Shown here one piece after another: positions 11,155 through 13,985 of a DNA stretch of 64,000 bases (within the stretch, counting starts at the first letter, position 1; each line of letters opens with the position of its first letter). A program made the translations under genes and the position numbers. Below the pieces are notes generated by a model. It was not told the origin of the DNA. It saw only the letters and a program-made list of their open reading frames with translations, and ran no database searches. Origin of the DNA: Prevotella sp. (GTDB lineage Bacteria > Bacteroidota > Bacteroidia > Bacteroidales > Bacteroidaceae); contig JAFPZD010000263.1 of the NCBI GenBank assembly GCA_017417465.1, forward strand, positions 29,005-93,004. The letters are read 5' to 3'.

Positions 11155-11778
11155 ATGGCATTATTCAGTAAACAAAATAGAGAGGCTCTCACCAATCCGT
11201 TGAACCTCGACCACCCCATATTGATTCAGGTATTGGGAATCTGCTCTGCGCTGGCAGTCACCAGCCAGCTGAAGCCGGCCATCGTCATGGGACTCGCCGT
11301 GACGGTGATTACGGCCTTTGCCAACGTTATCATCTCCGTGCTGCGTAACACCATCCCCAACCGCATTCGCATTGTGGTGCAACTGGTGGTTGTGGCAGCA
11401 CTGGTGACCATCGTCAGCCAGATACTGAAGGCTTACGTCTACGACGTCAGCGTGCAGCTGTCGGTTTATGTCGGCCTTATCATCACTAACTGTATCCTCA
11501 TGGGACGCCTCGAGGCGTTTGCCATGCAGAACAAGCCGTGGCCCTCGTTCCTCGACGGTGTTGGCAACGGCCTTGGCTATGCCATGATACTGGTTATCGT
11601 GGGTGCCGTTCGTGAGTTCTTCGGTCGCGGCTCGCTGTTAGGTTTCCAGATCATCCCGCAGGGTGCCTACGACGCCGGCTACATCAACAATGGCATGATG
11701 ACCATGCCCGCCATGGCGCTGATTCTCGTGGGTATTGTGATTTGGGTACATCGTGCTTATTTCTACAAGGAAAAGTAA
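11155..11778 (+). CDS. nqrD: Na+-translocating NADH:quinone reductase subunit D
   Basis: A 207-residue integral membrane subunit of the NqrD/RnfE type, with about six helices and the conserved NCILMGRLEAFAM segment, which in the family lies near an intramembrane iron centre shared with NqrE. The DGVGNGLGYA and RGSLLGFQI stretches are also standard. It is followed by a 155-nt palindromic spacer rather than the tight junction found earlier in the operon. Confidence 0.95.
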   Translation: MALFSKQNREALTNPLNLDHPILIQVLGICSALAVTSQLKPAIVMGLAVTVITAFANVIISVLRNTIPNRIRIVVQLVVVAALVTIVSQILKAYVYDVSVQLSVYVGLIITNCILMGRLEAFAMQNKPWPSFLDGVGNGLGYAMILVIVGAVREFFGRGSLLGFQIIPQGAYDAGYINNGMMTMPAMALILVGIVIWVHRAYFYKEK

Positions 11779-11933
11779 GGTGAAAGCCCACCCAAGCTCT
11801 CCCGAAGGGAGGGATGTCTGAATAGACAAAGTGGTGGGATGTGACAAATTAAAGATATTATAAATTAAACAAAAGGAGCACCCAATATGTAACTAAACAT
11901 CCCTCCTTGGGGAGGGCTTGGGTGGGCTTTAAT
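11779..11933 (+). repeat. Palindromic inter-cistronic spacer, copy 1 (nqrD-nqrE)
   Basis: Left arm 11783-11817 (AAAGCCCACCCAAGCTCTCC and on) is complementary to right arm 11897-11930 with a few mismatches, and each arm contains a smaller CTCC/GGAGG dyad. The loop holds AGGAG (11874-11878), 8 nt, then ATG-TAA (11887-11892), a start codon followed at once by a stop. The true nqrE ATG lies 3 nt after the right arm. The nqrE-nqrF spacer has the same layout. Confidence 0.8.
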
Positions 11934-12560
11934 ATGGATCATTCAATTTCTTTATTCTTTAGGTCGATTTTCGTCGACAACATGATATTCGCCTTCTTCC
12001 TTGGCATGTGCTCCTACCTTGCCGTGTCGAAGACGGTGAAGACATCGCTCGGATTAGGACTCGCCGTTACCTTTGTGCTCACGGTGACCGTCCCCGTCAA
12101 CTACCTGCTACAAACGAAGGTGCTGGGCCCCGGCTGCCTCGTCGAGGGTGTTGACCTGAGCTACCTTAGCTTTATCCTCTTCATTGGCGTCATCGCAGGT
12201 ATGGTGCAGCTGGTCGAGATGGTGGTTGAACGCTACTCGCCGTCGCTCTATGCCGCCCTGGGCATCTTCCTGCCACTGATCGCCGTGAACTGTGCCATCA
12301 TGGGTGCCTCGCTGTTCATGCAGCAGCGCATCCTGCTCGACCCGCAGAACACGCAGGCCATCACGAGCATCTGGGATGCCATCGTCTATGGCTTCGGCTC
12401 CGGCATTGGCTGGACACTGGCCATCGTCTCGCTTGGCGCTATCCGCGAGAAGATGCAGTACTGTGACGTGCCCCGTCCCTTGCAGGGCCTTGGCATCACG
12501 TTTATTGTGGTAGGACTCATGGCCATGGCTATGATGTGTTTCTCAGGACTAAACATCTGA
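11934..12560 (+). CDS. nqrE: Na+-translocating NADH:quinone reductase subunit E
   Basis: A 208-residue integral membrane subunit, paralogous to NqrD and of opposite topology in the family. The conserved [14 protein letters not shown] segment supplies a Cys for the intramembrane iron site. An upstream in-frame TTG at 11907 is rejected because it lies within the palindromic arm; ATG 11934 gives the family-typical beginning [17 protein letters not shown]. Translation may be influenced by the hairpin whose right arm ends just before this ATG. Confidence 0.95.
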
Positions 12561-12719
12561 AGGGTAAACCCACCCAAGCCCTCCCTAAAGGAGGAATGTC
12601 TGGATAGATAAAAGAGGTGGGTAAAGGATAATTAATAAAATGTACAACACTTAATAAAAAGGAGCACCCAGCATGTAATCAAACATCCCTCCCTTGGGGA
12701 GGGCTTGGGTGGGCTTTAT
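12561..12719 (+). repeat. Palindromic inter-cistronic spacer, copy 2 (nqrE-nqrF)
   Basis: Near-duplicate of the preceding spacer. The arms are 12566-12599 and 12683-12717, with AGGAG at about 12659-12663 and again an ATG-TAA pair (12673-12678). The nqrF ATG follows the right arm by 2 nt. The AGGAGCACCCA string is conserved in both copies, while the sequence around it has diverged. Confidence 0.8.
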
Positions 12720-13985
12720 ATGGTAGAATTTATAGCATATAGCATCGGAGTATTCCTCATCGTCATACTCCTCCTGGTGGCAATCCTGCTCGTAGCAAAG
12801 AAGTATCTCTCGCCATCGGGCAATGTGAATATTGTAATTAACGACGACCGCACCATCAGCGTCGATCAGGGCAACAACCTCATGCAGACACTCAACGAGA
12901 ACGGCATCTTCCTGCCGTCGGCATGCGGTGGAAAGGCCAGCTGCGGACAGTGCAAGGTGCAGGTGCTTGAGGGTGGCGGCGAGATTCTCGACTCGGAGCG
13001 TCCGCATTTCACCCGTAAGGAGATCAAGGCCCACTGGCGCCTTGGCTGTCAGACGAAGGTGAAGGGCGACCTGAAGATTCATGTCCCCGAGAGCATCCTT
13101 GGCGTCAAAGAGTACGAGTGTACCGTCATCTCGAACAAGAACGTTGCTACCTTCATCAAGGAGTTCAAGGTGCAGCTGCCTCCGGGTGAGCACATGGACT
13201 TCATCCCTGGCTCGTACGCACAGATCAAGATTCCGCAGTTCGACTGCATCGACTACAACGACTACGACCGCGACCTCATCACACCCGAGTATGTTCCTTC
13301 GTGGGAGAAGTTCAAGATGTTCGACCTGAAGTGTAAGAACCCCGAACCCACCATCCGTGCCTACTCCATGGCCAACTATCCGGCTGAGGGCGACGTCTTC
13401 ATGCTTACCGTGCGCATTGCAACACCTCCGTTCAAACCCGACAAGAGCGGCTTCATGGAGGTGAATCCCGGTATTGCATCCAGCTACATCTTCTCACTGA
13501 AGCCCGGCGACAAGGTCATTATGAGTGGCCCCTTTGGCGACTTCCATCCTCACTTCGACTCGAAGCGTGAGATGATTTGGGTAGGCGGTGGCGCAGGTAT
13601 GGCTCCGCTGCGTGCACAAATCATGCACATGACGAAGACGCTGCACACCACCGACCGTGAGATGCACTACTTCTATGGCGCACGTGCCCTGAACGAGGTG
13701 TTCTATCTCGACGATTTCCTCGGCTTGGAGAAGGAGTACCCCAACTTCCACTTCCACCTTGCCCTCGACCGTCCCGACCCTGCTGCCGATGCCGCTGGCG
13801 TGAAGTACACACCAGGCTTCGTCCATCAGGTGATGTACAACACGTACCTGAAGGATCACGAGGCCCCCGAGGATGTAGAGTACTACATGTGCGGCCCTGG
13901 CCCCATGTCGAACGCCGTCGTCCAGATGCTCGACTCGCTCGGCGTCGATCCCGAGTCAATCATGTACGACAATTTCGGAGGCTAA
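12720..13985 (+). CDS. nqrF: Na+-translocating NADH:quinone reductase subunit F
   Basis: The electron-entry subunit of 421 residues that oxidises NADH. Order: an N-terminal helix (residues 4-26); a 2Fe-2S ferredoxin domain with Cys69, Cys75, Cys78 and Cys110 in the CGGKASCGQC pattern; then an FAD domain (RAYSMANYP) and an NAD-binding domain (GGGAGMAPLR, YYMCGPGPMS). It ends DNFGG. ATG 12720 is chosen over an in-frame TTG at 12705. The last 26 bp overlap the 3' end of prmA on the other strand. Confidence 0.96.
   Translation: MVEFIAYSIGVFLIVILLLVAILLVAKKYLSPSGNVNIVINDDRTISVDQGNNLMQTLNENGIFLPSACGGKASCGQCKVQVLEGGGEILDSERPHFTRKEIKAHWRLGCQTKVKGDLKIHVPESILGVKEYECTVISNKNVATFIKEFKVQLPPGEHMDFIPGSYAQIKIPQFDCIDYNDYDRDLITPEYVPSWEKFKMFDLKCKNPEPTIRAYSMANYPAEGDVFMLTVRIATPPFKPDKSGFMEVNPGIASSYIFSLKPGDKVIMSGPFGDFHPHFDSKREMIWVGGGAGMAPLRAQIMHMTKTLHTTDREMHYFYGARALNEVFYLDDFLGLEKEYPNFHFHLALDRPDPAADAAGVKYTPGFVHQVMYNTYLKDHEAPEDVEYYMCGPGPMSNAVVQMLDSLGVDPESIMYDNFGG

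Follow-up and report, generated by a model that had tools for sequence, protein, structure and literature searches.

REP, BIME and REPIN sequences are short, GC-rich, imperfect palindromes that occur in many copies, often as inverted pairs. The arms of the element described here resemble them in being short, GC-rich, palindromic and multicopy and in forming inverted pairs, but the subtype that carries GGAG differs in being bound to start codons in one orientation.

Split ribosome-binding sites have been shown experimentally, by mutation, in genes 25 and 38 of phage T4, where a structure shortens the gap between signal and AUG from 27 to 11 nt and from 22 to 5 nt (PMC3014915, available portion). 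The element is like these sites in that its signal is set apart from the AUG and is predicted to be brought near it by structure. The T4 sites, however, belong to single phage genes in a host that uses SD sequences, whereas the element is REP-derived, occurs in dispersed copies within a phylum described as SD-independent, has a competing left arm and is folded here by prediction.

HMP2_4205, HMP2_1065 and HMP2_1032 are palindromic, intergenic, 80-132 bp long and found mostly or only in Bacteroidetes; in the excerpts available, they are reported near TPR, RuvA and TonB genes and taken as likely terminators (PMC8040213). Their likeness to the element, and their difference from it, is one of description and not of sequence.

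Leaders in Bacteroidota are portrayed as SD-less, with weakly structured starts (PMC3155529, PMC6847099 and PMC9976891, each in part). The element shares with them an A-rich stretch, but here a folded, GC-rich arm, flush with the AUG, separates this stretch from the start. In Prevotella bryantii reporters, adding or omitting an SD had no effect, a structure of -5.2 kcal/mol holding the SD lowered expression fivefold, and a hairpin of -9 kcal/mol about 20 nt upstream caused no such drop (PMC3155529, in part).

The element in the nqrD-nqrE-nqrF spacers

The window is a 64,000-nt stretch of a Prevotella assembly of 4.4 Mb in 278 contigs; the closest named relatives of its NqrE are Prevotella records, mostly ruminant MAGs. 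In it, nqrD (11155-11778; family assigned, as for the other two genes, by an NCBIfam match) is followed by a 155-nt spacer and nqrE (11934..12560), and nqrE by a 159-nt spacer and nqrF (12720..13985); both nqrE and nqrF, and all features given below, are on the plus strand. Each spacer is a copy of one and the same element. The sequence-only reading had described both as long palindromes containing AAAAGGAGCACCC and an ATG-TAA pair, and the sequence, together with folding against shuffled controls, bears this out. The outer arms of element 1 (11783-11808 and 11905-11930) are complementary over 26 nt (92%), and those of element 2 (12566-12609 and 12673-12716) over 44 nt (82%). Predicted folding energies are -73.8 kcal/mol for the nqrD-nqrE spacer (z -8.6) and -67.8 kcal/mol for the nqrE-nqrF spacer (z -6.1), and none of 200 shuffles was equally stable. 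The true start codons, as had also been noticed, lie just past the right arms, at 3 nt for nqrE and 2-3 nt for nqrF.

Element 1 begins with a left half (left arm plus GGTGGG; 11783..11838) that is predicted to adopt a Y-shaped fold alone. It continues with an A/T-rich interior (11848..11870), by its sequence a candidate ribosome-landing stretch, and with AAAAGGAG (11871..11878), which includes AGGAG (11874-11878). The adjoining CACCCA (11879..11884) is the complement of TGGGTG in the right arm and would form the 5' strand of a stem termed P1. After the ATG-TAA pair (11887..11892), the right arm (11897..11930) comprises the predicted P3 hairpin, CCCTCC/GGAGGG, and a tail, CTTGGGTGGGCTTT, that would supply the 3' strand of P1. 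Element 2 has a left half at 12566..12621 (from arm pairing and fold), AAAAGGAG at 12657..12664 with AGGAG at 12660-12664, CACCCA at 12665..12670 (the putative P1 5' strand, from sequence and right-half fold), the ATG-TAA pair at 12673..12678, and a right arm at 12683..12717 (from arm pairing and right-half fold).

Recurrence before start codons

In the composite, a left arm and an A-rich stretch are followed by GGAG-CACCC and the inner GTAA, and these by the right arm and the start codon. Exact AAGGAGCACCCARNATG occurs at three places in the source assembly, the third being the spacer before nuoM; of 198 other genomes, 3 have it, one copy apiece. A looser pattern, imposing no ATG, TAA or start-codon condition, matched 64 places in 48 of 398 genomes of the genus. 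The inner GTAA is present in the matched text at 30 of these, and at 33, in 28 genomes, if GTAT and GCAA are allowed, a widening defined after the places had been read. All 33 places with AAAAGGAG and the inner motif precede an ORF of at least 60 aa in a single orientation; near-identical copies in close genomes (L138/L165 and L158/L168) make these 33 not independent. The distance from AAAAGGAG to the ATG is 58-67 nt in them, bar two with duplicated right arms (75 and 102 nt). Three further places (L142, L161 and L174) are without the inner motif, yet lie upstream of ORFs. Of the other 28, the 22 that were read either match by chance or have AAAAGGAG adjoining a left arm, and none is an element.

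A second sample, not selected for GGAG, consisted of right arms followed by 0-6 nt and an ATG. It comprises 35 places in 18 of 299 genomes, of which 30 distinct sites were read, and 24 of these precede an ORF of at least 60 aa. GGAG-CACCC is present at 19 of the 24 long-ORF sites (nine with AGGAG and ten with T or C before GGAG), is missing from five, and is found at none of the six short-ORF sites. GGAG is common in the copies, but not universal. The composite is a distinct, recurrent element, with good support for its identity and recurrence and for where and in which direction it lies.

Two families are distinguished by their interiors, GGAG-CACCC in family A and GGAG-ACCCC in family B. Family-A right halves (n = 34) have AAGTAA in 3, GTAA in 27 and GGAG in 29; family-B right halves (n = 14) have them in 9, 12 and 14, respectively. 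For 19 of the family-A and all 14 of the family-B halves, which were taken from the looser pattern, GGAG was a condition of selection. The inner-end GTAA is kept in 39 of the 48. Two loci with duplicated right arms (L067 and L163) and a short one with no clear arm (L142) were excluded from the alignments, from these counts and from the set of 43 used below, and the start codon of L174 was set by homology with other copies. The earlier suggestion that a repeat copy had twice landed downstream of an old ribosome site, ahead of the gene, is rejected, because AAAAGGAG, the inner GTAA and the right arm recur as one unit; it also misfits the element-free junctions, which are short.

The 51 copies, two of them doubtful (L142 and L197), lie before about 21 gene kinds (20 classes, one of which joins lutB at L163 and an mmdA-like gene at L172), and 16 are at nqr, nuo or rnf genes. 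The downstream gene is nqrF or serA-like in six copies each, ackA in five, and LutC-like, a MacB-like permease or DAHP synthase in four each. Three copies each precede nqrE and nuoH, and two each nuoM, a lactate/glycerol-type Fe-S subunit and a prephenate dehydrogenase-like gene; rnfA, rnfD, lutB, the mmdA-like gene, hisS and five others have one. Names follow NCBIfam matches where found, made from 99-150 residues and mostly under full-length cut-offs; one of the nuoH assignments (L147) is of this kind. The LutC-like protein had no NCBIfam match; its name is our assumption, as are the labels MFS (L190), JAMM (L188) and kinase (L142). A role peculiar to the ratio of NqrE and NqrF, as first proposed, is not supported for an element that also precedes ackA, serA-like, nuoH, nuoM, rnfA, rnfD and lactate genes.

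The nqr junctions without the element are mostly short: 2-3 nt between nqrD and nqrE in 57 of 77 parsed, while of the 66 parsed between nqrE and nqrF, 37 measure 4-8 nt and 26 measure 10-36 nt. On an nqrE tree of 70 loci, from slightly fewer genomes (G072 and G224 contribute two each), the seven carrier loci need 7 changes (5 for the nqrE-nqrF junction, 3 for nqrD-nqrE); support is weak, with 9 of 66 inner branches starred, and such counts cannot separate gain from loss. Two more carriers (L235 and L284) are among 80 named loci that partly overlap the genomes already handled. The sequence-only reading had reasoned that absence from relatives would make a regulatory role unlikely. Most relatives do lack the element at nqr, but its scattered return to these junctions speaks against a mere relic, without thereby proving function.

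Other inserts share these junctions. Unrelated inserts of 75-153 nt (L075, L111, L112, L116, L089/L252, L221, L232, L256 and L250) each have a folding energy below all 100 of their block shuffles, and most are palindromic by eye. At L222:1084-1440, and likewise at L073, a gene for a four-helix-bundle protein (TIGR02436) lies within the nqrD-nqrE junction, and one genome (G072, contigs C38 and C148) has two nqrE copies with differing junction inserts.

The element is so far known only in this genus. Searches beyond it used the strict family-A pattern, which hit G000 alone in a set of 399 genomes from 30 genera in the family, and exact AAGGAGCACCCARNATG, found in its own genus only among 80 genera of the order. 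The strict pattern matched no stretch of viral_contigs, which provides no candidate for a viral carrier. Rfam gave nine matches up to E 1, eight of them to microRNA models, and none at the gathering score, so no known Rfam family was recognized. The element is undescribed in the titles and opening parts of abstracts of the literature matches listed.

The arms are copies of a palindromic, REP-like repeat that is spread through the genome. A genome search with one spacer returned 63 matching pieces, mostly arms, with extragenic position checked for part of the copies, and inverted arm pairs occur in several of 23 fetched regions. These regions and the window hold 34 oriented arm copies (at most 3 mismatches). 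All three that bear GGAG-ACCC end shortly 5' of a long ORF, whereas 2 of the 31 without this interior end near an ORF start. One of these two is a fourth, degenerate element copy, before ackA, and the other is the left arm that belongs to the nuoM copy.

Ordinary arm copies are clustered within about 9 kb at G000:C27:23134-32386. The source genome has two Y1_Tnp (Y1-transposase) genes; no arm (at most 5 mismatches) lies in the 3.2-3.3 kb read around either, and no RAYT (TnpA-REP) gene flanked by the palindrome was found in this incomplete assembly. At L155 (G418:C73), a palindrome arm (AAAAGGAGACCCACCCC ... GGGGGTGGGTCTCCTTTT) has AAAAGGAG at its outer end, and an arm end of this type is a possible origin of the interior motif.

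Predicted structure at the start codon

Most family-A right halves are predicted to form P1 (CACCCA/TGGGTG), a small ATGT/ACAT hairpin and P3 (CCCTCC/GGAGGG), and in part of the family-B cases ACCCC/GGGGT would pair around P3. GGAG sits immediately 5' of P1, and the predicted gap between GGAG and AUG falls from 46-59 nt in the linear sequence to 6-11 nt when the P1-P3 hairpin is subtracted (n = 43). The left halves in the window are predicted to fold alone as CCCACC/GGTGGG around two hairpins. Because the halves of the element are mutually complementary, one long stem competes with the two local folds: with flanks, it is predicted at -74.7 and -71.0 kcal/mol in the window elements, against -49.8 and -50.1 kcal/mol for the two local folds. 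The predictions include the far signal and gap-shortening hairpin of a split site, but the long stem remains the stabler.

The 20 nt 5' of GGAG average 64% A in 46 copies. A TGTATAACAATTAAAT-like stretch recurs before AAAAGGAG, upstream of GGAG, in many copies.

Sequence next to the AUG differs between nqrE loci with and without the element. The four loci that have it show a GC fraction of 0.55 at -20..-1 and a mean folding energy of -16.5 kcal/mol over -40..+20, and the 143 without it show 0.21 and -6.6 kcal/mol (range 0 to -15.3); in six nqrE loci with other inserts, the GC fraction before the AUG is 0.15-0.20. Across the copies, predicted structures against the AUG range from about -17 to -87 kcal/mol. 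In eight element spacers, with L067 and L123 (mis-delimited) and L078 (undelimited) left out, 3-7 nt between stop and AUG lie outside helices, versus 6-24 nt in nine other inserts of 75-153 nt; between 8 and 27 of every 100 shuffled element spacers leave equally few. When 12 nt past the stop are masked in silico, the start-proximal stem is released. Masking 15-25 nt lets the released nqrE tail pair with the beginning of nqrE, and P1 re-forms for nqrF at 25 nt only.

Covariation was sought in four ways and gave no formal support for the fold. RNAalifold on 38 right halves yielded 12 pairs, none with both sides changed, and in six ackA copies of the family C described below one pair has G-U, A-U and G-C states, not above shuffles. 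Interior-tail complementarity scarcely exceeded shuffles and was alike in plain arms: it was matched by at most 10 of 200 shuffles in 3 of 47 elements versus 3 of 16 plain arms, the control being a home-made dinucleotide shuffle. P1 is stronger with its own tail between families A and B, a single contrast, and no such effect is seen within a family. The pairing of the long arms is preserved with many pair types, as a DNA-level inverted repeat would likewise predict.

The ackA start was picked as a second junction independently of the motif. The gene is present in 97 of 100 genomes, and 50 upstream regions were read. GC is at least 0.45 at -30..-5 in ten of them, and all ten have a strong hairpin there: the degenerate copy of the source genome (L339), a family-A variant with GGAGCACC (L322), four copies of a family C (L302, L311, L319 and L324), two of a fourth type (L299 and L334), L316 and L337. 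In the local minimum fold, an internal C-rich strand is paired with the tail in family C and is present and unpaired in L299 and L334. GGAG precedes the C-rich strand in none of the four family-C copies and is missing from the copy of the source genome and from most other ackA-flush hairpins, which indicates that AUG-flush folding extends wider than GGAG. The family-C pattern occurs at 12 places in 9 of 299 genomes, five at ackA (three known and two new) and seven that are not the element. Long palindromes of another family (GCCCCCT.../...AGGGGGC type) lie before both nqrF and ackA in one genome (G044; L116 and L316).

Possible roles of the element

Placement and orientation at start codons agree with the earlier proposal that the element is tied to translation of the downstream gene, and an action at this level is likely. 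The reading that we prefer, with a probability of roughly 0.4, is that an insert of REP origin, about 150 nt long and lying between cistrons, shapes downstream translation through a split ribosome site that is possibly gated by coupling. The complementary arms, the interior, the placement and orientation, and the return to one set of genes in scattered species are observed; the split site and coupling gate are the mechanism that we infer as best. The right half would fold with P1 (CACCC/GGGTG or ACCCC/GGGGT) around P3, moving the A-rich, GGAG-bearing landing site to within 6-11 nt of the AUG as a split ribosome-binding site. The left arm would compete for the tail of the right arm, and the whole insert could then fold out as a single stem that leaves few nucleotides between the upstream stop and the downstream start. 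A ribosome ending the upstream gene at the base of this stem might peel it open, and downstream initiation would thereby depend on upstream translation. The ATG-TAA would arise incidentally from the sequence where the right arm ends on its inner side.

Counted for this split, coupling-gated site are the arms bearing GGAG, 3 of 3 of which lie before starts versus 2 of 31 others, the single orientation and start adjacency at 30-33 places, and the 7 changes that the seven carrier loci need on the nqrE tree. Also counted for it are GGAG-CACCC at 19 of 24 long-ORF sites and none of six short-ORF ones, the predicted shortening of the GGAG-AUG gap, the GC-rich, structured nqrE starts, the few nucleotides left outside helices compared with other inserts, and the T4 precedent. 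Counted against it are the long stem, which as the minimum-energy fold excludes P1, and the 3-7 nt outside helices, unremarkable among shuffles. The lack of GGAG in 5 of 24 copies and at ackA also weighs against it, as do the indifference of P. bryantii to an SD combined with the penalty that structure imposes there, the covariation and complementarity results and the outcome of masking at 15-25 nt.

The element may instead be a selfish palindromic insert that survives in junctions, an explanation we hold as tentatively plausible. Such an insert would fold out and leave ordinary termination-reinitiation to continue, with its orientation and interior inherited from a common source copy. This agrees with arms that are a dispersed repeat, with unrelated palindromic inserts at the same nqr junctions and with stops and AUGs that are, outside helices, near the spacing of native short junctions; in 49 of 51 copies, counted with no control, the right arm is predicted to form a duplex of -28 kcal/mol or stronger with the sequence 5' of it. 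The masking result shifts a little weight to this explanation from the split site. It leaves unexplained the single orientation at all 30-33 places, the confinement of the GGAG/GTAA type to start sites in the places read, and recurrence at so many gene kinds. Other inserts, moreover, retain an A/T-rich stretch before the AUG, and the element does not.

A broader possibility, which we consider somewhat unlikely, is that the element is a convergently recruited RNA switch. The palindrome of each genome would have come repeatedly to the same junctions (nqr, nuo, rnf, ackA, lactate and serA), where an added internal strand would compete with the left arm for the tail and so provide both coupling gate and split site, in a phylum said to need unstructured starts.

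REP-type elements elsewhere act in RNA processing and stability. A stem cut by RNase III, or one that shields RNA ends, might accordingly set the ratio of operon segments, and the long stable stem and a left arm that begins, by eye, 0-7 nt past the stop in nqr spacers would suit such a role. Processing, however, needs no right arm touching the AUG, no fixed orientation and no GGAG interior, and we regard it as improbable.

Attenuation or termination of transcription between the genes is highly improbable. Palindromic candidate RNAs of the human microbiome, some of them from Bacteroidetes, are mostly predicted terminators (230 of 250; PMC8040213, excerpts), but neither element has a sense-strand GC stem with a T run: a terminator scan matched the elements on the minus strand, and its sole plus-strand site is inside nqrE. 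The start-stop pair, proposed at first as a minimal ORF that holds ribosomes or feeds reinitiation, is hardly credible as a working part: ATG-TAA does lie 8 nt past AGGAG in both spacers, and ATGTAA is present in 23 of 34 family-A copies and two of family C (L319 and L324), but all 14 right halves of family B and 11 of the 34 of family A are without it, and its predicted pairing, ATGT with ACAT in the arm, gives another reason for its presence. In family A, the right arm commonly has ATG-TAA at its inner end, but the pair is no fixed part of the element.

Bacteroidota are the standard case of SD-independent starts that favor open, A-rich RNA. Dozens of AUG-flush structures at genes of respiration and central metabolism would either be bypassed by an unusual form of initiation or be used as control. 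The element makes it testable whether a split, hairpin-bridged landing site is used and whether GGAG matters in Prevotella, and it presents a REP-like repeat family that is linked to start codons with fixed orientation.
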